Assembly: GCF_024713975.1 (NCBI RefSeq)
Contig: NC_091102.1
Span: 23,781,001-23,845,000 of the forward strand
DNA: 64,000 nucleotides
DNA from: Paralichthys olivaceus
Taxonomy: Eukaryota; Chordata; Actinopteri; Pleuronectiformes; Paralichthyidae
Reading direction: 5' to 3'
Part shown: piece by piece, positions 6,743 through 55,746 of the stretch
Layout: every line of letters starts with the position of its first letter
Position numbering within the stretch: position 1 is the first letter of the stretch
The notes under the pieces: model-generated
Databases searched by the model: none
What the model saw: only the letters and a program-made list of their open reading frames with translations
Told to the model about the DNA's origin: nothing
Made by a program: the position numbers and the translations under genes

Positions 6743-8144
6743 TTAGTGCAGTTCTGTGATGATGGCTCTGACAGAGGTAGATGAGTTATGGAGTCTTATT
6801 GCGGTTGGGAGGAACGATTTCCTGTATCGTTCCTTAGAGCAGTGGGGTTGAATGAGCCTGTGGCTGAAGCCGCTCTTCAGTTTGTCCAGTGTTTTGTGGA
6901 GGGGGTGAGAGGGATTGTCCATGATTGCCAGCAGTTTTGCCAGCATCCTGTCCTCCACCAGCTCCTCCAGGGTGACAAGCTTAGAGCCAACCACAGACTC
7001 AGCTTTACTGATGATTTTGTTCAGTCTGTTGGCGTCCTTTGTCTTGATGCCCACACCCCAGGACACCACAGCAAAGAAGATGGTGCTCGCCACAACAGAC
7101 TGAAAGAACATCTGCAGCATCTTGTTGCAGACATTGAAGGACCCGAGCCTCCTCAGGAAGTAAAGCCGGCTCAGGCCCTTCTTGTAAACGGCCTCTGTGT
7201 TGGTGGACCAGTCCAGTTTATTGTCCAGTGTGACACCCAGGTACTTGTATGCAGGTACCACCTCCACATCCGTCCCACCGATGCAGAGAGGAGAGGGCAG
7301 GGGCTTGTTCCTCCTGAAGTCCACCACCATCTCCTTCGTCTTCGCCATGTTGAGCTGCAGGCAGTTCTCCCCACACCACTTCACAAAGCGGTCAACCAGT
7401 TGTACTCAGCCTCCCTCCCGCCCTCAACACACCCCACAATGGCCATGTCATCAAAGAACTTCTGCAGATGACACGACTCAGTGCAGTGCTTAAAGTCAGC
7501 AGTGTATGTGGTGAAGAGGAAGAGGGACAGTACAGTTCCCTGGGGGGCCCTGATGTTATTGATCAGACGATCAGACACACAGTTCTGTAATCTCACAAAC
7601 TGTGGTCTGCCCGTCAGATAGTCATCGACCCAAGTGATGAGGGGAGCAGTCACCTGCGTGCCCTCCAGTTTGGCTTTCAGCAGTCTGGGCTGGATGGTGT
7701 TGAAGGCGCTGGAGAAATCGAAAAACATGATCCTGACTGAGGTGTTGGGTCTGTCCAGGGAGGAGTAAGCCTTCTGCAGCAGGCAGATGATTGCATCATC
7801 AACCCCAACATGGGCCTGATATGCAAACTGCAGGGGGTCTTGTGATGGGCACACACCAGCGGTCTGAGATGTGCTAGGACCAGTCTCTCCATGACCTTCA
7901 TGATATGAGAGGTCAGTGCCACCGGCCTGTAGTCCTCCAGTGCAGCAGGATGTTCTTTTTGGGGCACTGGGACCAGGCAGGATGTTTTCCAGAGCACTGG
8001 CACTCTCTGAAGGTGTAGGCTCAGGTTGAAGAGGTGCTGGAGAACTCCACAGAGCTGGCTGGAACATGCCTTCAGCACACGAGGGCTGATGCGGTCCAGT
8101 CCAGCAGCTTTCCTCTGTTTGAGCCTCTCCAGCTCTCTCCTCAC
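6743..8144 (-). pseudogene. Rex1-like reverse transcriptase, frameshifted
   Basis: Three overlapping minus-strand frames are collinear. 8144-7677 starts with the fingers region (KAAGLDRISPRVLK, then DYRPVALTSHIMKVMERLVL). 8067-7381 carries the catalytic block FFDFSSAFNTIQP, APQGTVLS and the active-site box as FFDDMAIVG, where A of the usual FADD is F. 7384-6743 has the thumb and C-terminus (YKYLGVTLDNKLDW, then YRKSFLPTAIRLHNSS). Frameshifts lie near 7830 and 7385. The element is therefore immobile on its own. Confidence 0.8.
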
Positions 8145-8227
8145 CTGGCTGGCTGTGATGTGGAGTCCAGACTGGGGGGTGAGGGATGTCAGTGGTGGGT
8201 TTGAGGGTGGAGGTGATGAGGGTGGTT

Positions 8228-9512
8228 TCAGAGAGGTATGTGTTGCAGGAGGTGGTGGTGGTGGGGGGCTGTGGGTGATGTGAGGATGTCCTGGGGGTGG
8301 GAGGTGTGAAAAAGTCTGTGGTGAAAGCCAGCGGGGGGGTGGGGGGAGGTGGTGACGGGTGTAGTGTGGGGCAGTGGATGATGGGGGGAGGTGGGGGGTT
8401 GTTGCTCGGAGAAGCAGTAGATGCAGTCGTAGAGGCAGTGGAGAGTCCGCTGGGGGTGGGGGGGGTTGGAGTTGAACCTATTGAAGAACGTGTTCAGCTC
8501 GTTCGCATGTCGTTCATTCCCAGCTGCTCCCCCACCTCTCCTCTGGAAGCCGGTGATCTCCTTCATCCCACTCCAGACTTCTCTGGTATTGTTGTCCTCC
8601 AGTTTGTGCTCCAGTTTTCTTCTGAAGTTGTCCTTTCTCTCCATGATGCTGCGCTTGAGCTCCCTTTGTACCCATTTGAGTTCTGCTCTGTCCCGTGATC
8701 TAAAGGCCCTCTTCTTCTCGTTGAGAAGGGCCTTCAGGTCGCTTGTTACCCACGGTTTGTTATTTGGGTAACAGCGGATCTCTTTAGTGGGGATGGTGTT
8801 GCCTATGCAGAACCCAATGTACTCAGAGACACAGTCAGTCAGGCCATCAATGTCCTCACCATGTGGCTCATAAAGAGCATCCCAGTCTGTGGCATCCAGC
8901 GCTCCACGCAGTGTTTCCATGGCCTCAGGAGACCATTTCCTCACTGTCCTCACTTTGACTGGGTGCTGCTGAACCACAGGCTTGTATGATGGTAAGAGCA
9001 GGACTAGGTTGTGGTCTGACCTGCCCAGTGGCGGCAGGGCAGTGGAGCTGTATGCACCCTTAACATTTGAATACAGCAGGTCCAAAGTCTTATTTTCACG
9101 GGTGGCACATTTGACAAACTGGAAGAATGTTGGGAGTGTGGATGAGAGGGAAGCATGGTTAAAATCACCTGTGATGACGATGAAGGCCCCGGGGTGATGT
9201 GTCCACAGTGTGGATGACGTCACACGCTGCTTCTGCGTTCCCAGATGGAGGAATATAAACAGTGATGGCGAAAACACAGGTAAACTCCCTCGGCACATAA
9301 TATGGACGAAGTCCGACAGCGACAAACTTGGTGTCCGGGCTGCAGACACGCTGTTTAATGGTGACGTGCCCGGGGTGACACCACCTGTTGTTCAGGAGCA
9401 CGGCAAGGCCCCCTCCTTTCATCTTGTCGGTCGCAGTGGTGTCTCTGTCGGCTAACCAATGTTTTATATCAGACCTAACCGTCCAGGATGGAGTCGCAAG
9501 AAGGTATGTCAA
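8228..9512 (-). pseudogene. Rex1-like apurinic endonuclease domain
   Basis: Two overlapping minus-strand frames carry the domain. 9512-9165 has the N-terminal half with KGGGLAVLLNNRW; 9349-8228 has the catalytic GDFNHASL, the SDHNLVLLLP block and the long linker with NNKPWVTSDLKALLNEKKRAF. The conserved N/D of GDFN and the SDH catalytic histidine are present. A frameshift around 9200 breaks the domain. The enzyme nicks target DNA to prime reverse transcription. Confidence 0.8.
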
Positions 9513-16603: not shown

Positions 16604-18434
16604 GTGCCTAGATGCACAGGCAGAGGTGGAGGGGTTGCAGCAATCTCTAAATCTAACCTATCTATCAACCCTCTACCGAAAGAAAGTTATAACTACTTTG
16701 AAAATCTTATAATCAGCCTCATCCATTCAAGTCTGAAATCACATAAACCAATTCATCTAGTTATCATATATTGTCCACCTGCCCCTTACTCAGAATTTCC
16801 ATCTGAATTATCTTGAATTTCTATTAGAACTAGTTCTTAGGACAGATAAAATAATTATAGTAGGTGATTTCAACATTCATGTAGATGTTGCCAACGATAG
16901 CCTTAGTTCAGCTTTCAAATCAATAATAGACGTGATTGGTTTCATTCAACATGTGAATAAACCCACCCACTGTCTGACTTACACTCTTGATCTTGTTCTG
17001 ACATATGGCATAGACATTGAAAATGTAATAATATTTCAACAGAACTCTCTTTTGTCTGACCATTTTTTAATTACATTTGAATTTACAATTACTAATTACA
17101 CCGATTCTGGACAGAAATTCTATTATAGTCTGTGTTTATCTGATAAAACTGTGAATACATTTAAAGAACTGCTTCCCTCTACACTTACCTCTCAGCCATG
17201 TGTCAGTACAATACAGGAAAGTTATCAAAACTTTACCCCCACAGTAGTTGATAACTTAGTTAACAGTACAGCAGCTTCATTAAAAACAACCTTTGATGCT
17301 GTCGCCCCTCTAAAAAAGAAGGCAAATCAGAGGAGATCAGCTCCGTGGTATAATTCCCAGACACGTATTCTAAAACAGACATCGCAGAAACTAGAGAGGA
17401 AGTGGCGTTCCACCAATAAACATGACTTTCACCTAGCCTGGAAGGATAGCTTGATATGTTACAAGAAAGAACGTAGAAATGTCAGAACCTCTTATTATTC
17501 ATTATTAATAGAAAAAATAACAACAACCCCAGGTTCCTCTTCAGCACTGTAGCCAGGCTGACAGAAAGTCATACCTCTACTGACCCATCTATTCCTCTAA
17601 CCCTGAGAAGCAATGATTTCATGAGCTTCTTTACAAATAAAATTATAACCATCAGGGATAAAATCCACCACCTCTTCCCAATCAATAGCACATACATAGA
17701 TACAATGTCTGGTCCTGAAACCATAGACCCAGATTTATGTTTGAACCAATTTTCTTCTATTGACCTTCCTGAACTGACCTCATTAGTTTCATCATGTAAA
17801 CCAACAACTTGTCAATTAGACTCTGTCCAAACTGGACTTTTTAAGGAAATTTTCCCCGTTTGACAGTTCCATATTAAATCAGATTAACATGTCTTTGTTA
17901 ACCGGCTATGTAATTCAAGCTTTTAAGGTAGCTGTTATTAAACCTCTGCTTAAGCCTACACTTGATCCAGAGGGTTTAGCTAATTATAGACCCATATCAA
18001 ACCTGCCCTTCATTTCAAAAATCTTAGAAAAAGCACTTGCTAACCAGCTGTGTGATTACTTAGACATAAATGGTTTGCTGGACAAATTTCAGTCAGGATT
18101 TAGAATCCATCACAGCACAGAAACAGCACTATTGAAAGTCACTAATGACCTTTTCATGGCCTCAGATGATGGACTTGTCTCTGTACTCATCCTGTTGGAT
18201 CTTAGTGCAGCATTTGACACCATAGATCATAAGATTCTGGTACAGAGACTAGAACAACATATAGGGATCAGAGAAACTGAACTAGACTGGTTTAAATCAT
18301 ATTTATCTGATAGATTTCAATTTGTTAACGTCAACAATGACCCCTCCATGCACATGCAAGTTAGTCATGGAGTTCCAAAAGGTTCTGTCCTTGGACTGAT
18401 ACTCTTCAACTTATATATGCTCCCCTTAGGCAAC
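16604..18434 (+). pseudogene. L2 endonuclease and RT, first part
   Basis: Collinear plus-strand blocks: 16604-16816 (TGRGGGVAAISKSNL, endonuclease), the catalytic 'VGDFNIHVD' at about 16862-16890, 16932-17552 (SDHFLITFEF, then APWYNSQTRILKQTSQKLER), 17621-17863, and 17889 onward ([33 protein letters not shown]). Frame breaks lie near 16815, 17550 and 17862. The gene is cut at 18434, just before the YADD box, by the retroviral LTR. Confidence 0.85.
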
Positions 18435-18619
18435 TGTCGTATATTGGGGTTGCGATGATGTGAAGATGATGAAGGAATCTCAGATCGAACGTACCAGCGC
18501 CCAATAATGTGAGAAATGCTCACCCTTTTCTTTCGTCGACGTGGTGCGGGAGCAGGTCCGCTGAAGTTGTCGGCGACGCCGCAGGACACAGCACGTCCGA
18601 AGTTCGTGACGCCAAGTCT
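18435..18619 (-). repeat. extra leader plus partial LTR beyond the 3' LTR
   Basis: 18486-18619 duplicates the PBS/leader segment 25617-25750, and 18435-18485 duplicates the last 51 bp of the LTR (one mismatch). The arrangement is LTR, leader, truncated LTR, as expected from a tandem provirus collapsed by deletion. Confidence 0.85.
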
Positions 18620-28539: not shown

Positions 28540-28899
28540 AAAGTTGACTTTGACTTGACTTTTCTAACGTCAGCTTGCATTAGCATTCAAACAACTACCT
28601 AACCTTAGTAATACACCACTACCACAAAGAAGCAAAAGAGTTACCATCTTATCCAAAACTACAGTTTTCATTCACATTTCAAAACCTTTCCTGCAGTTCA
28701 AGTAACTGAGTGATTAAAAAGATACCATCTTGTCTAAAACTGCAGTAATTTAAGAGTCCATCTTTACCTGGTCTGCAAGGTGAACGTGCCTCCGTGGAGA
28801 ATATCAGTGGACATTAAGTCTAAAAACATTGTGCGAATGACACCTGCACCTGGGGTGCCCAATTTCTGGGCCCAGAACTGACGCTTGTTGTTTTTTTTG
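28540..28899. other. unassigned sequence, possible exon on the minus strand
   Basis: A minus-strand frame without stops runs from the transposon junction to 28768, where CAG|GTAAAG could be a splice donor. It includes FWAQKLGTPGAGVIRTMFLD. I do not recognise it. The Merlin-type element inserted at its upstream edge. Confidence 0.3.
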
Positions 28900-29610
28900 G
28901 GTAACACTTTATAATAACTATCCGTTATAACTAGTTAATAGATCATTAGTAAACTGTTAATTTACGATGCCTTATAGATAGTTCTATAGACCATTAATAA
29001 ACTTTTAGTTAATGAGTTATAAAAGACTTGTTTACTGTATGTTAATGATTTATAACTATACCTTATAAACTAGTAATAGATCATGAACAAGCTATTAGTA
29101 AATTACTTACTAATGACTTGCTAAGTATCAGTTAATAGTTTATATATGTTATTGGGATGCTATTCTAAAGTTGCAACTATTCCTCATTTATTAACTGTTT
29201 GTAAATGAGGAATAGTTGCAACTTTAGAATAACGTCCCAATAACATACATAAGCTAATAACTAATACTTAACTAATATATTAACTCACACTTTACAGATC
29301 AGTTGTTAATAGTTTGTTAACCATCTACTAATACCAGTGAAACTTTGTAGAACAGCAAATGGGTGGAACAAGTTCAAGGTACAGAAATTTGATGTGATTT
29401 TTAAAATATCAAATTTTTGTACCTCAACCTTGTTCCACCCATAGGCTTTCTGTGTACTGCATTTTACCAACGACACACCACAGATGAAATGTTGAACATT
29501 TTGTTTAATGTATAGAAACACACATACTGAGCCATCACATGGCAGAACAGCAGTATACAATAGTATACAACAGTATACAAACCCATGACGTTTGGGCACT
29601 TTTTGTGCAG
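28900..29610 (+). repeat. left terminal inverted repeat
   Basis: Matches the reverse complement of 35225-35897. It is built of degenerate AT-rich subrepeats ('agttaatagatcattagtaa' and relatives). A hairpin with ~29-bp arms lies at 29162-29231. Compared with the right copy it has an extra ~100 bp (near 29305-29405) that makes a fold-back with 29405-29442. Confidence 0.9.
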
Positions 29611-30257
29611 GACATGAAAACAAAATAAATCAAAATCAAGCCATTGGCATTATTGATATGAACATGTCTTAGCACAACTTGGACCCTCTATACTTAGTGA
29701 ACCAGACCCGAGCTACAACCGAACTGCTCTAGGGCACCATCCCACAGTGACACAACACCTAAGCTTTCTTAGACAGAGGAATCAGTTTCCCCTTTTTCTT
29801 TTGATGTTCAACATCCCTCAAAAGGTTTGGATCATTAATCAACACTTCCAGACATTTTTTGGCAAAGTCCTGCAGTCGTTGCTGTGGTGTATGAGCAACC
29901 AGCAACTCCTTGTATTTCTTCGGGGCCACAACAGCCAGCTCACAGATCAGGGCATTGACGACGACGGTGTTTCGGTCGACACTGACCGTTCGATATGCCA
30001 CACTCAGCTTTCTTCCTTTCTCGTACACCTTAAGGACTTTCGTGTATCTCTTGATGACCTCCTCAGGATGACGTGCTGAAACAGATTTAGTTAAGTATAA
30101 CAAACATACAAGTAGTGAATCGACACAGGGAAACACACACATAGATGCAAAGTGGTAGCAAAAAGTAATGAAGATTACATGGGCACAGAGCAATTGGAGG
30201 GTCCAAGATAATATACCCACCAGGAAATACATTGTGGAAAATAAACTTTATACATAG

Positions 30258-30326
30258 AGAGAGACAGACAGACAGACACAGAGAGAGAGAGATAGACAAA
30301 GGGAGAGATAGACAGAGAGAGAGAGA

Positions 30327-30364
<38 letters not shown>

Positions 30365-30373
30365 GACAGACAT
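30258..30373. repeat. (CAGA)n / (CA)n microsatellite
   Basis: A GACA/GAGA run followed by ~17 CA repeats and three more CAGA units, inside intron 2 of the CCDC106-like gene. Open frames through it are artefacts. Confidence 0.9.
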
Positions 30374-31367
30374 TGTGATGTCTACATGCCTAACACACAT
30401 GAGGGGAGCAGCCTTATTGCCTTCCTCTTTACACTTACCTCTCTGCTTGCCATGTTGCCTTTTTTTCTTCCTCTTGTCCTTTTTCTTGTGACTGGTGGTG
30501 GTGCTTCTTTTTCTGCTTGCGTCTTTTCTTCGATTTCTTGTCTGAATCGGAAAAATCAGTTGATGAGGATGAGGAGCTGGATGAAGAGGATTAAGAGGAG
30601 TTGGATGGACTGGAGGATGAAGAGAAAGAAGATGCACCAGGAGATGAGTTGGCCGAGGAAGATGTGTCAATTGTCCCACCATCACCTGTATCTACAACAT
30701 AATAGAAAATACAATACCAAATGCATTATGATGATACAAGTCAACTCACATACATTCTTATCAACATTTACATTTATTAAGACTTTCAGTTTCACTGATT
30801 TATCAAATCGTGATCTGATCAGTTGGACAGATGTGTCTGCTGTCAATCAATGCTACAGATATTATCTTCCAGGTATTAACTGTACATGTGTATTGTTTGG
30901 GTAATAACACGCTCATGCTCTGATGAAGGTCTTCTCACCGTGAAATGTTGGCCTTTCTTCCACTCAATTGTATATATATTTTACAAAGCACCCAAGTATC
31001 ATTGTCAGGTGTGCAAACATGTTTTTCCAAGAAAGTGTTAGGCCTACTTACTTTGACCAACTTATTGGCGGAGGGAGTCTCTCTCCTTAGTCAGGTCACT
31101 GATTTTTTCTGTGACTGTGTGCTGGTTCTTCTTAATATGTTAAAATGCAGTTGGAGCTACAGTTGCCTCAGTATCTGGAATGATAGGATAGAGAATTAAA
31201 AAAGCTGTAATCATAAAAGCCAGGTGAAGGTCAAATAAAATAATGAGCAGCTGGCTCTAGATATCGGCACTGGATCTCTTAATGAGTGAACATAATTGTA
31301 TAACTATCATCCATCACCAGTGAATATATGAATGGATATGTACAGACTATCATTATATACATATACG

Positions 31368-31398
<31 letters not shown>

Positions 31399-31412
31399 TA
31401 TGGCATGCCGTT

Positions 31413-32525
31413 CAGGAAATTAAACCTTTGAATATATGGAATGAAACCTTGAATATATTGAATTAAGTCTGAATATATGGAATGAACCTTTGAATATATT
31501 GAATGAAACTTTGAATATATTGAATTAAGTCTGAATATATTGAATGAAGTCTGAATATATTGAATGAAACTTGAATATATGGAATGAAGTCTGAATATAT
31601 GGAATAAAACTCGAATATATGGAATGAAACTTGAATATATGGAATGAAGTCTGAATATATTGAATGAAGTCTGAATATATGGAATGAAGTCTGAATATAT
31701 TGAATGAAACTTTGAATATATGGAATGAAACCTTGAATATATGGAATGAAGTCTGAATATATTGAATGAAACCTTGAATATATGGATTGAAACCTTGAAT
31801 ATATGGAATGAAGTCTGAATATATGGAATGAAACCTTGAATATATGGAATGAAGTCTGAATATATTGAATGAAGTCTGAATATATTGAATGAAACCTTGA
31901 ATATATGGAATGAAGTCTGAATATATGGAATGAAACTCGAATATATGGAATGAAACTTGAATATATGGAATGAAGTCTGAATATATTGAATGAAGTCTGA
32001 ATATATGGAATGAAGTCTGAATATATTGAATGAAACTTTGAATATATGGAATGAAACCTTGAATATATTGAATGAAGTCTGAATATATGGAATGAACCTT
32101 TGAATATATGGAATTAACCTTTGAATATATTGAATGAAACTTTGAATATATTGAATTAAGTCTGAATATATTGAATGAAGTCTGAATATATTGAATGAAA
32201 CTTGAATATATGGAATGAAGTCTGAATATATGGAATGAAACTCGAATATATGGAATGAAACTTGAATATATGGAATGAAGTCTGAATATATTGAATGAAG
32301 TCTGAATATATTGAATGAAGTCTGAATATATGGAATGAAACCTTGAATATATGGAATGAAACCTTGAATATATGGAATGAAGTCTGAATATATGGAATGA
32401 AACTCGAATATATGGAATGAAACTTGAATATATGGAATGAAACTTGAATATATGGAATGAAGTCTGAATATATTGAATGAAGTCTGAATACATTGAATGA
32501 AACCTTGAATATATTGACTGAAGTC
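31413..32525. repeat. 1.1-kb minisatellite, 20-21-bp unit, ~55 copies
   Basis: Units alternate among 'gaatgaagtctgaatatatt', 'gaatgaaacttgaatatatg', 'gaatgaaactcgaatatatg' and a 21-bp form with 'acctt' or 'acttt'. The rare 'actcg' variant recurs at about 31610, 31938, 32242 and 32404, showing higher-order duplication. It lies in intron 1 of the CCDC106-like gene. No minus-strand frame contains a stop, hence long spurious open frames. Confidence 0.95.
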
Positions 32526-32812
32526 GCGCGTGCACACACACATAGTTAATCATTGGACACTTCACTAATCTGGTTGAATTATGTTATCCTGATCAAACAT
32601 CTTTAATAAAAAGATAACACGCAGTCTTGCTTACCGTCACCGTTGTTGTCCGGGTGCACAGCATGGTCCACAGGTGTAGCTTTCTCTTTACTGGAAGTAC
32701 CCACTGTTGACTTCTTTCTCTTTCTCCCGACAGTTCCTGGACTTATCTCGGTATTTTGCGCATCGCCGCAGGGAACACTAGTATCGGACATTTTACCAGA
32801 CCGTGTATTCAT

Positions 32813-33213
32813 TCTTTTAAATCAATGCTAATTCAAGCTGCCCATCCAATAAACACTTTGCTGAGTGAGTGAAGGATGGGCATGTCTGCCTAGGTTGTCA
32901 CCGGTTGTCACCCATCAAAGTACATTGGTGATGCGAGGTGATTGACAAGTTGACAACCAGCCAAAATGCGGGAGGAGGTTGGATGGCTCCTCCTCCAGCC
33001 CGTGAATACAATTATGATTGGCTTGTTTCACTCTCGTCACTCCCGACCTATAATAGGCTACGTGGTAATCTGGCGGGAGCTAGTTACATTCATATTACAA
33101 GTCATATTGTAATATCGTAGCCAAATAATAGCCTGGTTTAGCCACTGAGCTAAGAGAGCTTTATTGAAGGAAGAACTAAATCTAAAAGAAAACACAGAGA
33201 AATAATCAAATGG
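32813..33213. promoter_or_regulatory. candidate bidirectional promoter of the Merlin-type element
   Basis: The 401 bp between the two divergent start codons, more GC-rich than the rest of the element. It contains CCAAT-type boxes in both senses ('gattgg' at ~33015, 'ccaat' at ~32846), 'gcgggaggagg' and 'ggcgggag'. A shared promoter for both genes is inferred from the arrangement. Confidence 0.55.
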
Positions 33214-35200
33214 ATGCAGAAGAAAAGGCTTCTAAGACGGATGAGATGCCAAAAATGCAAACACAAAATGAAATTCAAGGAATCAGTTCGTGTGGAAAAC
33301 TATGCATGGTAAGTTTTATTTTTATTGCATGAAATGACATTTATTTAATTGTGAGCTATTAAGAGTGCCCAATATATCTTAATTCATGTTAACATTAATT
33401 TATAATGTTCTAAACTATACATTACTTAATACTAATCTACAAGATCACAACACAAAACTTTGCGAGCTTATAGATCTGCTATTTTCAGAAAAAAATACAA
33501 AAAAACCCTCAACACTTTTGAAACATATTAACACACATTTTATGGGGGTTCCTGGCACAAAATATTTTCAGATGGGGTCCATGGCCAGATACACATTAAT
33601 TTGGGGGTTCTTGACATGAAAATGTTTGAGAATCACTGCTCTAGCCACTACCCTGGCCTGTGTCATTCTTATCTTTATTTGTATATATCTTCAGGGTTTG
33701 CAAACACCATAACCACTGAGGGAGGAAACTGAAGAGGTCAATTAGACACAAATCTATATTCAGCAAGTCAAAGGTCTCCCTCTTCAACTGGGTGCGCTTT
33801 GTGTACAGGTACGCTATGGCATAGGTATATGATTTTAGTCTGTCTGTCTATGATGAAAAGTGTTTATTTCAATAGAAATACTGTATAACTATGCTGTCAT
33901 AAACAATAACTGGAGACTATGTAGTAAAGCTTGTGTTTATTCTGTTATGGAGCATCTCTAGACTCATGATGATAACAGGTGCTTGGAGCTATTTCATTTT
34001 TGTGATTTATTTTGCTAAAAGGTGTAATTTACAGCTTGAAATCTTAACAGCTTAATTATGGAAATATGTTTAATTGCTGTATCTTATGGGATGCTGTGTT
34101 GTTCAGCATTAGGCCTGGTGGAGCAACATGAGTGTATGACCCTGCCTCTTGAAGCTCAATGGCAATTGGCTCTCTCAATCTATAGGCTCTGGCAATTAAT
34201 ATTAGAAATAGGATTTTACAAATATCCTACAGTATTATTAGTCCCAAATGTTTTAGCAGAGCTCTGTAGAAAATACCACAAAACATATTTTCCATCATTA
34301 TTGCTGTTTTTGTCTACACAGTAGTGGACAATTATCATATCCTGGGGTGCAGTAGATGCAAACTTTGTGTATCAAACCAAAAAGATCAAAAGATTATTAT
34401 TGGCCTTGTTCTATCAGATTTGCACAAGGCCTGCGTCTACGTCAAGTGGACATGATCAATGATGACATCTCTGGAAGCTCAGCAACCCTGTCCAAGATGG
34501 CTCAAAAGCTGCGAGATGTGTGCTCTACTGCGATGGACAGATATCAGCAAGCAAGAGGCCAGTACATTGGGGGGCGGCAGCAGTTTGTCGCCTTTGATGA
34601 GAGCCACTTCAGACACAAAAGAAAGGCAAGCAGCAAGCACTATTAGCAAGATAGTAATGCACATTACCATTGAATGACAGATTATTCATTTTTGTTTAAG
34701 GAAGAATAATTCCTAATATTTTATGTTTTCAACAGTACGGACAGGGACGAGTGGCTGGAAGACGAAGAAGTGGGTGTTTGGGATGCTAGGTGTGAACCGG
34801 AGAGGGAGAAGACATGCAAAGCCTGTTCTTCGCTTAGTCGAGAGAAGAAGAAGGAGAGATCTGGTGCCACTTATAGCTCACCATGTTAAAGAGGGATCTA
34901 CAATAATAAGTGATGAGTGGCGGGCTTATCACAATGCTTTACCTCAGCTAGGTTACACCCATTTCACTGTCAATCACAGTGTCATATGTTGATGCCCAAA
35001 CAGGTGCACATACTCAGCACATAGAGAGGGCCTGGAGAACAGTTAAGGAAAATGTGTGGAGACTCAGGGGGAATCGTACAGAGGAGTTACTGGTTGACCA
35101 TCTCAGAGTTATTGAATGGCATGAGTGGCTTGCCCGTAAGCATTGCAAAGGGCCATTAGGACAGATAATCCATGACATTGCTGTGATGTATGGACATTAA
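33214..35200 (+). pseudogene. Merlin/ISXO2-type DDE transposase, four exons, broken
   Basis: Exons: 33214-33308 (donor TG|GTAAGT), 33695-33808 (acceptor TTCAG, donor AG|GTACGC), 34418-34625 (acceptor ATCAG, donor AAG|GCAAGC, a GC-type donor), and 34736-35200 (acceptor AACAG, stop TAA). All junctions keep frame. Total ~882 nt, about 293 codons, normal for Merlin transposases. Exon 1-2 encode a zinc-ribbon-like CQKCKHKMKF...YAWVCKHHNH. Catalytic residues as I read them: D in VAFDESHFRHKRK, D in IISDEWRAY, E in HTQHIERAWRTVK. VFGMLGVNRR and YTHFTVNHSV are family blocks. Lesions: an in-frame TGA after the zinc ribbon in exon 2, a one-base shift before VFGM near 34775, and a one-base shift at ~34982. 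It would cut and paste the element via the inverted repeats. Confidence 0.85.
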
Positions 35201-35224
35201 ATGTCCCTCCGAAATTCTGTTTAT

Positions 35225-35897
35225 TCAGTGTTTAGCACAAAAAGAGCACAAACCTCATGGGTTTGTATACTGTTGTATACTGTTGTATACTGCTGTTCTG
35301 CCATGTGATGGCTCAGTATGTGTGCTTCTATACATTAAACACAGTGTTCAACATTTCATCTGTGGTGTGTCTTTGGTAAAATGTAGTACACAGAAAGCCT
35401 ATGGGTGGAACAAGGTTGAGGTACAAAATTTTGATATTAACAACTGATCTGTAAAGTGTGAGTTAATATATTAGTTAAGTATTAGTTATTAGCTTATGTA
35501 TGTTATTGGGACGTTATTCTAAAGTTGCAACTATTCCTCATTTACTAACAGTTAATAAATGAGGAATAGTTGCAACTTTAGAATAACGACCCAATAGCAT
35601 AAATAAACTATTAACTGATACTTAGCAAGTCAATAGTAAGTAATTCACTAATAGCCTGTTCATGATCTATTACTAGTTTATAAGGTATAGTTATAAAGCA
35701 TTAACATACAGTTAACAAGTCTTTTATAACTCATTAACTAACAGTTTATTAATGGTCTATTAACTATCTAAAAGGCATCGTTATAAATCCTTAACAAACT
35801 TAACAAACACTTAACAAGTCATTAATAACTCATTAATTAACAGTTTACTAATGATCTATTAACTAGTTATAACGGATAGTTATTATAAAGTGTTACC
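35225..35897 (-). repeat. right terminal inverted repeat
   Basis: Inverted copy of the left end, with the same hairpin at 35516-35585 ('ctaaagttgcaactattcct' and its complement). It lacks the fold-back insertion of the left copy. It starts just after the transposase stop codon. Confidence 0.9.
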
Positions 35898-35905
35898 TTT
35901 TTTTG

Positions 35906-36649: not shown

Positions 36650-37070
36650 TATGTAGCTCCAAGCATGCTTCAGACCTGAAATTGCTGTCTAAGTAATGCA
36701 AGCTTGCATCCTGTGAAAGGGTATACGACTATGATATGACAAGAATAAGTGCAGCAGCATCATGCTGCTAACCTCTGAAATTATCTAAAGAATGCAGGCA
36801 TGCATTCTGCGAGAGGTCATACTAATATATTTCACTAAAGTGAAACATCTGTGTAGCAGCAAGCATGCTGCAGACCTATTAATTTATTGACTAAAGAATG
36901 TAGGCGTGCATTCTGTGAGAGAACATACTACTGTTATGTGAAATAACTATGTGTAGCAGCAGCATGCTGCTGACCTCTCAAATAATTAAAAGAATGCAGG
37001 CATGCATTCGGGGAGATTTCATACTACTGTTAAGTGGAATGTCTATAGCAGCAGCATGACGCAGCATCAG
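36650..37070. repeat. ~110-bp tandem repeat with palindromic cores, about four units
   Basis: Each unit has 'agcatgctgc' and 'gaatgcaggcatgcattc' (or near variants), both palindromic, followed by 'gagag.tcatacta'. The third and fourth units are the closest. Confidence 0.75.
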
Positions 37071-37394: not shown

Positions 37395-39630
37395 TCAATT
37401 CAATTCAATTCAATTCAATTTTATTTGTATAGCGCCAAATCATAATATACATTATCTCAAGGCACTTTACATAGAAGGTCAGGACCTTAAAATCAAAATA
37501 TAAAGAAACCCAACAGTTCCCAAAATGAGCAAGCACTTTGGCGACTGTGGAGAGGAAAAACTCCCTCATTAACAAGGAGAAACCTCTAGAACCAGACTCA
37601 ATGTGGGCGGTCATCTGCCTCGACCGGTTGGGGTGAGCAAAGAAAACGGGGGAAGGAGATGAGAGAGGGGTTGGAAAAGAGGGGAGAGAAGGGAGAGGGA
37701 TAGTGGGGAGGGGGAAGTAGGTGAGAGAAAGACCGGGGACACTTGGGCGCCATCAGGTATCAGATCTGACTAGTTAAAAATGGAACAACAGTGTAAAGAC
37801 TATTAATCACTGTGGATAACAGACACATTTTATATCATAATGAATTACTGCGATATTGTAATTAGTAATAGGAGAAGTTGTTGTCCTGAGGTTCCGGGGT
37901 CGGAGATATCTGAAATGAGAGAGAAAAAAGAGAGAGAGAGACTATGGGAGTACAAAGTGAAATAGTCATTGACATGTATTAAAATAAATAAATGAATGAA
38001 TGTGGAGGGACAGAGAGAAGTGGAGAGGTGCTCAGTGAATGATGGGAGTTCCCCCAGCAGTCTAGACCTATAGCAGCATAACTAAGTGATGGTTCACGAC
38101 TCACCTGATCCAGAACTAACTATAGGCTTTATCTTAAAGGAACGTTTTTAGTTTAACTTTTAATGCAGAGATAGTGTCTGCCTCCCGAACCCAGAGTGGG
38201 AGTTGGTTCCACAGGAGAGGAGCCTGGTAGCTGAATGCTCTACCTCCTGTTCTACTCTTACTGACTCTTGGAACCACAAGAGAGCCTGTGTTTTGTGAAC
38301 GAAGTGATCTATTTGGATAATATGGTGTTATCAAGTCTTTGATATATGAAGGGGCTTGATTGTTAAGGGCTTTAAATGTGAGGAGCAGGATTTTGAAATC
38401 TATTCTGAATTTTACAGGGAGCCAATGTAGAGAAGCTAGGACAGGAGTAATATGATCTCTCCTTCTCGTTCCTGTCAGCACTTGTGCTGCGGCATTTTGA
38501 ACCAACTGGAGATTTTTTACCGATTTCCTGGGGCATCCTGATAATAAGGAATTAGAGTAATCTTATCTAGAGGTAACGAATGCGTGGACTGGTTTTTCAG
38601 CATCCTTCTGACAGGATGTTTCTAATTTTGTTAATATTGCGCAGGTGGAAGAAAGCTGTCCTAGAGACTTGTTTTATGTGTTGGTCAAATGACATGTCCT
38701 GGTCAAACATAACTCCAAGGTTCCTCACAGTTGAGCTGGAGGCCAAGCTGACACCATCCAATGTAACTATCTGTTCAGACAGTGATTCTCTAAGATGTTT
38801 AGGGCCGATTACAACGACCTCAGTTTTCTCTTAATTTAGAAGTAGGAAGTTTTGGGTCATCCAGGCCTTGATGTTCTGGAGACATTCCTGAAGTTGAACT
38901 AAGTGATTAGATTCATCATGCTTCATAGAAATGTACAGCTGGGTGTCATCTGCGTAACAATGGTAGTGTATGTGGGGCTTTCTCATGATGTTGCCTAAGG
39001 GGAGCATGTATAAGGTGAAGAGTATCGGTCCAAGGACAGAACCTTGTGGAACTCCATGATTAACTTGCATGTGCATGGAGGGGTCATTGTTGACATTAAC
39101 AAATTGAAATCTATCTGATAAATATGATTTAAACCAGTCTAGTGCAGTTCCTCTGATCCCTATATGTTGTTCTAGTCTCTGTACCAGAATCTTATGATCT
39201 ATGGTGTTAAATGCTGCACTAAGATCCAACAGGACGAGTACAGAGACAAGTCCATCATCTGAGGCCATGAAAAGGTCATTAGTGACTTTCAATAGTGCTG
39301 TTTCTGTGCTGTGATGGATTCTAAATCCTGACTGAAATTTGTCCAGCAAACCGTTACTATCTAAGTAATCACACAGCTGGTTAGCAACAGCTTTTTCTAA
39401 GATTTTAGAAATGAAGGGCAGGTTTGATATGGGTCTATAATTAGCTTAAACCTCTGGATCAAGTGTAGGCTTTTTCAGCAGAGGTTTAATAACAGCTACC
39501 TTAAAAGCCTGTGGTACATACGTAGCTGGTTAACAAAGACATGTTAATCTGATTTAATATGGAACTGTCAATCAGGGGGAAAATTTCCTTAAAAAGTCTA
39601 GTTGGGACCGAGTCTAATTGACAAGTTGAC
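37395..39630 (-). mobile_element. L2-clade LINE, copy 3, 5'-truncated
   Basis: Minus-strand element with a clean (ATTCA)n tail at 37395-37420, a full 3' UTR closely matching copy 2, then RT. Similarity ends near 39630 at the 'gaccgagtctaattgacaag' block before the RT domain. Confidence 0.9.
38134..39540 (-). pseudogene. L2 reverse transcriptase of copy 3
   Basis: Frame 39349-38831 contains [33 protein letters not shown] (the second catalytic D is retained; D>N next to it), [10 protein letters not shown] and CYADDTQLY. Frame 38505-38134 is the C-terminus (MVQNAAAQVLTGTRRRDHIT). A stop near 38831 and missing bases near 39440 break it. It is the least decayed RT core of the family here. Confidence 0.85.
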
Positions 39631-52769: not shown

Positions 52770-55746
52770 GAAGGATGATATGTTATTATTAAAGGAAAGA
52801 TAGACGACATGATGGTCACATTAATTAATGTCTATGCCCCACCAGAAAGTGAGAAACATTTTTAAAACACTAGTTACAACTATAGCATCAGTATCAGAAG
52901 GTATAATGATGTTTGCAGGAGATTTTAATATAATTCTGGATCATAGGATAGATACAACAAGCACAAAAAGAAATAAGACACACTTAACAAAATGAATATG
53001 TCACTGACGGAACAAGGTATATAAGATATATGGAGAGAATTTCACCCAACAGAGAAGGAGTACACACACTACAATCATTCTAGAATAGACTATGTATTTA
53101 TGAATAGCTGGGACATGCACATGGTAAAAGAGTGTAAAATTAGGATGGCTGATATCTCTAAATAGTGGGTTAGGGTTAGGGTTAGATTGAATGTGGGAAT
53201 ATTGAACAATAAGGTGTGGCGGTGGGGTATGGTTAGGGCGCCAACTGCTGGACAACAGTCAGGAGTGGGTCAGCCAGTGATCCGACAGCTGTGCAGAATC
53301 AGGTGATCAGGCAGTCAATAAGAGCATGCGGTAACCTGGTTCTGCTCTCTCTTGTAGTAGGCTGGCATCCCGAGGCGAGAGGAGCGGCAGACGCATGTGG
53401 ATGTGTGTATGTGTGTGTGGGTTGTGAGACCCGGACAAGATATATGTGTGTGGTTGCCAGAGAAGGCAACGGAAATAAAAACATTACAAACGCCATTCTC
53501 TCCTCTCGTCCTTCCCCGGAGTGGGCCGAGCAATCCCACAAAGGTAATAATTGAGCAAATTAAAAAGGAAATAAAGAGATGTATAGAAGAAAATGCAATG
53601 GAAGAAATTAGTCCGACTATTCTGTGGGACACATAAATGCAGTAATAAGAGGAAATATAATAGCTGTAACATCCCAACAAAAGAAACCAAAACAAGCAGC
53701 TTATCTGGACTTGACTGAAAAATTAAAAAGCCTGGAAATAGAATATCAAAACACTAAAAAAAATCCAACTCCTACAAAAAATGAAGACCACAAAGGGGGG
53801 TCCTCAGGCTACTAGACTACTGGCAAGGCGAATAAGGAAACAACAGGTCCTAAATACGGTACACAAAATCAGAGATCGGCCTATTTAAAATATGCGGTGA
53901 CAGAAATAGAAAATATATTCAAGGAGTACTACAAAAACCTACATACACAACCACCCTCATCTAATAAGGAGGCAAAAAGACAGTTTCTCAACTCACTCGA
54001 TTTACCAGCTATTGGGGAAATACAAATCAACAACCTTGCAGCTCTTATAACACCTTAAGAAATATCCAATGCCATATCCAATCTTAAAGCTAATAAAACT
54101 CCTGGAGGAGATGGTTTTCCATCGGAATGGTACAGAACTTTTAAGGAGGATCTGATAACTCTCCTTACAGCCACTCTTAATTGGACTCTTAAAGAAGGTC
54201 ACTTACCACCATCTTGGAAAGAGGTAATAATATCAATAATTCTTAAAAAAGGGAAAGATACAGAATACTGCAACAATTGTAGACCAACTTCAGTTCTTAA
54301 TGTAGATTACAAGATATATACAAACATCATAGGACACAGATATGGGAAATTTATAAATTACCTTATTGATGAAGACTAAACTGATTTTATTACAGGACGC
54401 CAAACATAAGACAGCATTAGGAGGACTGTCCATATAATTAACACATTACAAGTTAATATAAACAGTGCTGTTTGTCTCGATTCGATTGTCCCTTCGATTG
54501 TGTCAATTGGAACTTCCTAAATTTAGTATTAGAACGATTTGGATTTAATAAAAACTCAGATAATTGTATTTATCAAAACCCTACAGCCAGAATAAAAGCT
54601 TAACGGAAAGTATAAGGTTAGGAAGAGGTACCCATCAAGGATGCTGCCCATCTCCGCTCCTTTTTGCACTATATATTGAACCATTAGCACAGGTGATCAG
54701 ACAGAGTGACAAAATAAAGGAATTAATATTAAAGGACAGGAACATAAAATAAGCCTATTTGCGGATGATAGTATGATATATCTGGACAACCCTAATACAA
54801 ATCTTACTCAGCTGATGCATCTTATACATACATTTGGCAGTCACTCAGGATATGAGATAAATGTAAATAAAACACAAATTTTGGCCATTAATTATGCCCC
54901 ATCGCAAGAAATCCAAAGAGACCACCAATTAAATTGGCAATCCAAAACTATAAAATATCTTGGGGTGACTCTTACCAAACAGATCACTCACCTTTATAAA
55001 GCAAACTATGATCAGATCCATCACCTGATAGGTAAGGATATAGAAAGATGGTCAACTTTGCCATTAGATCTCAACTCAAAGTTAAAGTAATTAAAATGAA
55101 CATTTTCCTAAAACTACAATATTTCTTTCTCTCTCTGCCTATTAAGATTCCACAAGACAAGTTCAAAACCTGGGACAAAATGATCACCAGATTTATTTGG
55201 AATGGTAAAACACCAAGGATAAAATACAGTACTCTACAAATGGAGAAAGATAAGGGGGGTATGGCACTTCTAAACTTGAAAGACTATTATCGCAGTGCAC
55301 AACTTGGACCATTAGTCAAGTGGTGTGACAAGGATTATAGTGCTAGGTGGAAAGACATTGAGAGGGTGGTGGCAGATATTCCAACCCAATCCCTGATTGG
55401 CAATTCTAAATTAATGAAGTCATTACAAGAGTCGTTAGATCCAATAACTTTGCACACATTGAATATCTGGTTTGATTTTGTCAAACAATACAAAATAGGA
55501 GGAGACATAAAACAGATAAGTTGGTTTGCATATGATGACAGATTTAAGCCAAGTTTAAGTGAGCACAACTTCAGGGACTGGGGTAGGAAAGGGCTCACAG
55601 CAATGTGTATAGGACATCTTATGAACTTCCAGGATAAGGAAAAGCAGTTATGGATCAGAAAACAGAGACCATTTCAGATACCTGCAGTTGAGGGATTCTT
55701 TTGTGAAGGAAATACAAACTGTAAAAACCTTGAATGGTGTAATTGA
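52770..55746 (+). pseudogene. L1 ORF2 (endonuclease-RT), broken
   Basis: Endonuclease blocks: 'INVYAPPE' (~52828-52850), 'FAGDFNIILDH' (~52912-52945) and 'SRIDYVFMN' (~53080-53105). RT blocks: 'KTPGGDGFPSEWYRTFKEDL' (~54095), 'CRPTSVLNVDYKIYT' (~54278), '[20 protein letters not shown]' (in 54564-54752) and the active site 'LFADDSMIYL' (~54757-54786). The C-terminal frame 55048-55746 (232 codons) has LKLQYFFLSLPIKIPQDKFK and FIWNGKTPRIKYSTLQMEKD. Many stops and frameshifts are present. The palm around the first catalytic aspartate (54470-54500) is damaged. Confidence 0.8.
53215..53540 (+). mobile_element. solo LTR, 326 bp, 4-bp target duplication
   Basis: Starts TGTGGCGG and ends ATCCCACA, flanked by AAGG (53211-53214 and 53541-53544) inside the L1 endonuclease-RT linker. 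An AATAAA near 53475 suggests plus orientation. Open frames inside it (for example 53299-53541 minus) are not genes. It is a third LTR family, distinct from 28142 and 43090. Confidence 0.85.

Follow-up and report, generated by a model that had tools for sequence, protein, structure and literature searches.

A 64,000-nucleotide stretch of the Paralichthys olivaceus genome (NC_091102.1; C10:23781001-23845000 in our contig numbering, hereafter the window) holds at positions 28900-35897 a defunct Merlin-type DNA transposon. Merlin elements are related to bacterial IS1016 and are usually described with a transposase alone, and Harbinger elements need a second, Myb-like protein. In the window element, a DDE transposase gene is paired head to head with a gene of the CCDC106 family, the product of which probably served as a DNA-binding helper of the transposase. 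There is good anatomical support for a two-component Merlin lineage, because both copies found with the same ends (2/2) and two further Merlin lineages carry both genes or remnants of them. This part of a proposal made in a first-pass annotation of the window has stood, and its other part, that the second protein assists the transposase, is retained here as a conditional one. The Merlin transposons of this genome (588 Mb, 25 contigs) were likely two-gene machines and not of the usual one-gene kind.

The element starts with GGTAACACTT and ends with AAGTGTTACC, inside long inverted repeats (left, 28900-29608; right, 35235-35897). Three pairs of arms, 28900-28967/35830-35897, 28986-29311/35435-35760, and 29405-29608/35235-35438, were 97, 96, and 95% complementary, respectively, confirming the earlier report of repeats of ~0.7 kb. 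The 8-bp target-site duplication TTTTTTTG was read directly at 28892-28899 and 35898-35905. The two copies agree at 8 of 8 bp, as had been noted before, but the sequence is a T-run of low complexity and is weak evidence alone. In a Merlin survey (PMC8101967), the superfamily is defined by GG termini, an 8- or 9-bp duplication, and inverted repeats first described as 24-462 bp. The window element shares with it the GG termini, the DDE_Tnp_IS1595 domain, and a putative 8-bp duplication; it differs in its second gene, in its longer inverted repeats, and in an N-terminal CxxC, zinc-ribbon-like stretch of the transposase. Because 24-462 bp is the range first described, repeat length is not diagnostic, and Merlin membership rests on the transposase.

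The transposase gene lies on the plus strand in four exons (33129-35200), in agreement with the first-pass annotation, and matches Pfam DDE_Tnp_IS1595 (PF12762), the Merlin catalytic domain, at 5.6e-12 and 46.4 bits (cut-off 27). Exon 1 (33129-33308), placed by alignment to P0013 and by its splice site, encodes a CxxC motif; its start codon is lost and its frame is broken. Exon 2 (33695-33808) contains one nonsense codon. Exon 3 (34418-34625) has a GC donor and encodes FDESHF with the likely first catalytic Asp, and exon 4 (34736-35200), which holds the PF12762 match and has 7 bp and 2 bp fewer than the C9 copy described below, encodes SDEWRAY and QHIERAW with the likely second Asp and the Glu. 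Presumably, these three motifs would supply the Asp-Asp-Glu set. The gene is a pseudogene. A CxxC stretch resembling a zinc ribbon is also found at the N termini of the fish Merlin transposases P0013, P0014, and P0021; against the Zn_ribbon_recom profile, P0014 scored above the cut-off (26.1 vs 25.3 bits) and P0013 below it (14.2), and P0021 gave no match.

On the minus strand, the second gene matches Pfam CCDC106 (PF15794) at 5.4e-27 (95.5 bits vs a curated cut-off of 30.2), which bears out its earlier identification as CCDC106-like. It had been described with three exons. Four emerged when it was aligned with C9 and with related sequences in the database, the overlooked one being exon 2 (31052-31174), which aligns with the coiled-coil region of host CCDC106 and contains two nonsense codons. 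Exon 1 (32635-32812) begins MNTRSGK, and exon 3 (30439-30691) is Ser-rich and then Lys-rich, with one nonsense codon and 2 bp fewer than C9. Exon 4 (29759-30075), which holds the PF15794 match, is open here and encodes the C-terminal domain. This gene, too, is a pseudogene. The divergent order of the two genes was correctly recognized at first, and the distance of 401 bp between start codons was not. Alignment to the relative P0013, whose protein is annotated as open, puts the transposase start near 33129 and not at the ATG at 33210, ~317 bp from the partner ATG at 32812. The head-to-head intergenic region (32813-33128) is likely a shared promoter.

A genome search with the left repeat (281-bp query) returned at least one further element, C9:1268969-1273670, of 4702 bp; very common words were skipped, so that the number of copies is a lower bound. 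This element has the same ends as the window element and contains, in the same divergent order, the CCDC106-like gene and transposase remnants from which the 5' exons are missing. At aligned sites, identity between the two copies was 96-98% for the inverted repeats; the partner exons were 95.5-97.2% identical. A search of this kind had been suggested along with the initial proposal, and it recovered both genes between matching ends. Two observations named at that time as contrary to the pairing, copies with the same ends lacking the minus-strand gene and unrelated ends bounding that gene, were not made in this genome, where both genes were present in 2 of the 2 copies found with window-type ends.

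A more distant element on C5 keeps the head-to-head layout. Its transposase relic (minus strand, 27843548-27843968) consists of three pieces 65-70% identical to the window transposase, with the N-terminal sequence MPGLATELREL at 27844877-27844939 (start 27844939, minus strand). The partner, on the plus strand, has a probable exon 1 in an open frame from 27845288 (first ATG, 27845366), followed by a Ser/Lys exon around 27852150-27852400 and a C-terminal domain at 27853172-27853477 that is 36% identical to that of the window. An LTR-retrotransposon-like insertion (300-bp repeats, 99% alike) between exon 1 and the Ser/Lys exon displaced the rest of the partner. Both genes lie inside inverted arms at 27843098-27843414 and 27853683-27854018, which align at 67% over 342 columns (7e-31) and at 92% in their best stretch, covering 97 query bases. 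The right tip, which reads GGTAAAACTTTA inwards, could be aligned end to end with the window tips (E-values from a small local database, 4.6e-7 and 3.3e-6). The two elements thus have ends, transposase, partner, and layout in common despite a deep split, and ends, transposase, and partner diverged together between them.

A third lineage is represented by elements on C3 and C4. The C3 element (23588790-23592319, 3530 bp) has GG ends, a duplication matching at 7/8 positions, and 144-bp inverted repeats. Its transposase is 48-49% identical to that of the window and has a change at the likely first catalytic Asp; downstream lie a CCDC106-type exon tail, 15/18 residues of which equal the C4 relic, and its 3' sequence. 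The ends of the C4 element are 90-96% identical to those of C3, its right tip is missing, and between the ends is a CCDC106 relic that scored 25.7 bits with PF15794 (cut-off 30.2), 3.8e-5 against C3, and 5.2e-5 against the host gene on C13. No transposase match was found within the 40 kb examined around C4. The GG-start terminus GGTAACACTT occurs in the window, C9, and C3 elements and at the C4 left end; target duplications were readable in the first three of these. In the left part of the C3 element (L018, about 7930-9210), the minus strand holds an acidic, Ser-containing open stretch (EEDDEDDDGNMDEDDVIPPSSPDISESSD...) that lies upstream of the transposase in divergent orientation and may be what is left of a partner exon.

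A genome search with full-length P0013 (13/13 candidates scored) identified four transposase loci, on C9, C10, C5, and C3; PF12762 alone found three. CCDC106-like sequence lay inside the element at 4/4 of these loci, at C3 as the tail only. Conversely, seven CCDC106-like loci were found: those on C10, C9, C5, and C4 (the last below the cut-off) lie in Merlin elements, and those on C13, C17, and C20 lie outside, where 20 kb per locus contained no transposase match at E 0.05. Only the best candidates were scored in the genome search, and decayed copies may have been missed. With seven such loci in the genome, one would fall less than 10 kb from any chosen position with a probability of ~7 x 20 kb / 588 Mb = 2e-4. 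Nesting or adjacency of two unrelated mobile elements would fit the T-run at the window target site and the ~11-kb span of the C5 element with its other insertions. This explanation is nonetheless disfavored by the C9 copy, where both genes recur between the same ends elsewhere in the genome, and by the association seen again at C5, C3, and C4; we consider it extremely improbable.

The two genes also have close relatives in other fish. A protein search with the partner C-terminal domain gave 12 matches at E <= 1 among 58 candidates. Ten of the 12, some of them isoforms or odd gene predictions, were 83-91% identical over 99-100% of the domain and came from Labeo, Danio, Corythoichthys, Oryzias, Gouania, Festucalex, and Salarias; of the remaining matches, that from Epinephelus covered half of the domain, and the unnamed twelfth covered 28% of it. 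The transposase search gave 162 matches, 120 of them listed. Among those listed were proteins from Fundulus (91%), Gadus (91% over a third of the query), and Labeo (87% over half). Labeo has close forms of both the partner (P0001) and the transposase (P0051), on different contigs. One of the 120 listed matches, P0100 from Triplophysa rosa, is a gene prediction that joins a CCDC106 domain and, after it, a Merlin transposase in one protein, both on the same strand; no CCDC106 domain was seen in the remaining 119, as would be expected of separate genes.

The pairing might instead have arisen when an element captured a host CCDC106 gene, as an accident of that capture. Host-type genes with a similar domain plan do occur in the same genome (C13, C17, and C20), and they cluster with CCDC106a and CCDC106-like host proteins from many fish. 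In a tree of 30 CCDC106 domains, however, 11 element-type and 19 host-type domains separated with support of 100/99. The rows, our own selection, were seven of the 12 partner-search proteins, 16 listed host-type proteins, P0100, and six domains from this genome; the C4 relic (37 residues matched) was excluded, and the label "element" for rows P0001-P0010 is based on 83-91% similarity to the window copy, so that their linkage to elements is inferred. The bootstrap was unsettled, and the branches of C5 and P0100 were longer than 3. Capture of a host gene as a recent event, allowed for by the first-pass annotation, is disfavored by these comparisons because the partners of the window and C5 elements (36% identical) are as far apart as either is from the host genes (31-40%). 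With these distances and partners or remnants in three Merlin lineages, any capture would have to be older than the divergence of the lineages, and the introns retained by the CCDC106-like gene argue against a retrocopy. Capture appears improbable overall. The tree is unrooted and thus does not give the direction of transfer between element and host; descent of vertebrate CCDC106 from element partners may have occurred. Vertebrate host CCDC106 resembles the partner in PF15794 and domain plan and differs in lying outside Merlin elements, on its own side of the tree.

The exon 4 domain is likely helical and DNA-binding, as predicted from a model of its close relative P0001. The modeled domain is compact, and its nearest solved neighbors are mostly DNA-binding helix-turn-helix proteins, first among them LEAFY, a regulator known from plants. 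The DNA-binding domain of LEAFY is 8-15% identical to the partner domain, and LEAFY differs further in its N-terminal SAM domain (PMC8287900). A link in sequence between the CCDC106 domain and LEAFY was rejected, as no profile match was obtained, and solved structures searched by sequence yielded low-complexity or weak matches (E 0.39 and above), none of them to LEAFY. The far-reaching idea that fish Merlin is an ancient obligate two-component system with a LEAFY-fold partner, that CCDC106 is a domesticated partner, and that the LEAFY fold may trace to a similar transposon-borne DNA-binding protein is doubtful at best. Alternatively, the CCDC106-like gene could be a passenger with another job, blunting host silencing or acting on the p53/DNA-damage response, without direct help in strand transfer. 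Human CCDC106 is reported to bind p53 and lower its stability (PMC5432287, PMC6423756, and PMC10713525), and contact of the partner with the transposase or the ends is hypothetical. The best conserved part is nevertheless the compact helical domain with its mostly DNA-binding structural neighbors, and we regard a passenger role as rather unlikely.

If the partner is a DNA-binding helper, its helical domain would bind the long inverted repeats and thereby recruit or position the transposase, its N-terminal region would serve in pairing, and the Lys-rich stretch in nuclear entry. Such a role would be analogous to that of the Myb-like protein in Harbinger. The two systems are alike in combining a transposase with a helical partner, and in both the partner diverges faster than the transposase, as stated for Harbinger in PMC9179366. 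They differ in that the transposase families are unrelated and the window partner is CCDC106-like instead of Myb-like; the Pfam domains found were IS1595-type and CCDC106, not a Harbinger DDE with a Myb-like protein. PIF/Harbinger also differs from Merlin in its duplication length of 3 bp.

Several observations weigh against a paired helper system. Partners in Danio and Oryzias are 83-89% identical to that of the window, and because the best listed transposases there are far less similar (58% and 66-67%, respectively), some of these partner genes may be unpaired. Neither the window nor the C9 genes are intact, and the transposases of C5 and C3 are likewise disrupted, so that function is only inferred; comparison of window and C9 gave no clear excess of coding over non-coding constraint. 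The C9 flanks match over 6 bp (AACCCA), not over 8 or the 8-9 anticipated. No left tip was found for the C5 element, the exon 1 of which was assigned by position and short resemblance only. C3 and C4 hold only pieces, and at C3 the transposase and the partner tail are on the same strand, for which reason this lineage either has a different layout or is rearranged. As to the fold, the element-type model contained no confident coiled coil, hhalign gave a probability of 1.2% for LEAFY and the CCDC106 domain, Foldseek E-values for LEAFY were above 1, and LEAFY was absent among the matches listed for a host CCDC106 model (50 of 71).

Further features were recorded in and around the elements. Each window inverted repeat contains an internal palindrome (29122-29270 and 35476-35624) with 74-bp arms (89-91%) and AGTTGCAAC inside. 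This motif has four sites each in the window and C9 elements and one in C5, near its end; none was seen in the C3 or C4 elements, and it is hence not general. A 20-bp minisatellite (31418-32525) occupies part of intron 1 of the CCDC106-like gene, and one of the same kind (GAATATATGGAATGAA...) lies a few kb outside the C5 element at about 27839150-27839960. A 45-bp end at C3:26475883-26475927, which begins GGTAACACTTTACAATAACC and matches the C5 element at 96%, is perhaps a short derivative; neither a CCDC106 nor a transposase match was present in the 3 kb read there. Immediately right of the window element are three to four ~96-bp tandem repeats (36688-37040). Open frames resembling non-LTR retrotransposon reverse transcriptase/endonuclease were recognized by eye in the window at 1525-2787, 6743-9391, 16761-18458, 38831-39445, and 55036-55746. 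Rfam gave no match in the window at gathering score.

The available part of the Merlin survey (PMC8101967) contains no mention of CCDC or of a second, additional, or other ORF. In the open-licence literature, judged by titles and starts of abstracts, no report of a Merlin-CCDC106 pairing and no paper on LEAFY with CCDC106 was found, and a search for a Merlin accessory protein gave only a Kolobok paper. If the pairing is as proposed, Merlin would join Harbinger among the transposons that have a DNA-binding partner, and the C-terminal domain of CCDC106 would gain a predicted DNA-binding fold. A co-inherited second gene could explain the scatter of CCDC106-like genes among fish species, and the pairing makes the origin of CCDC106, a reported p53-binding protein, testable.

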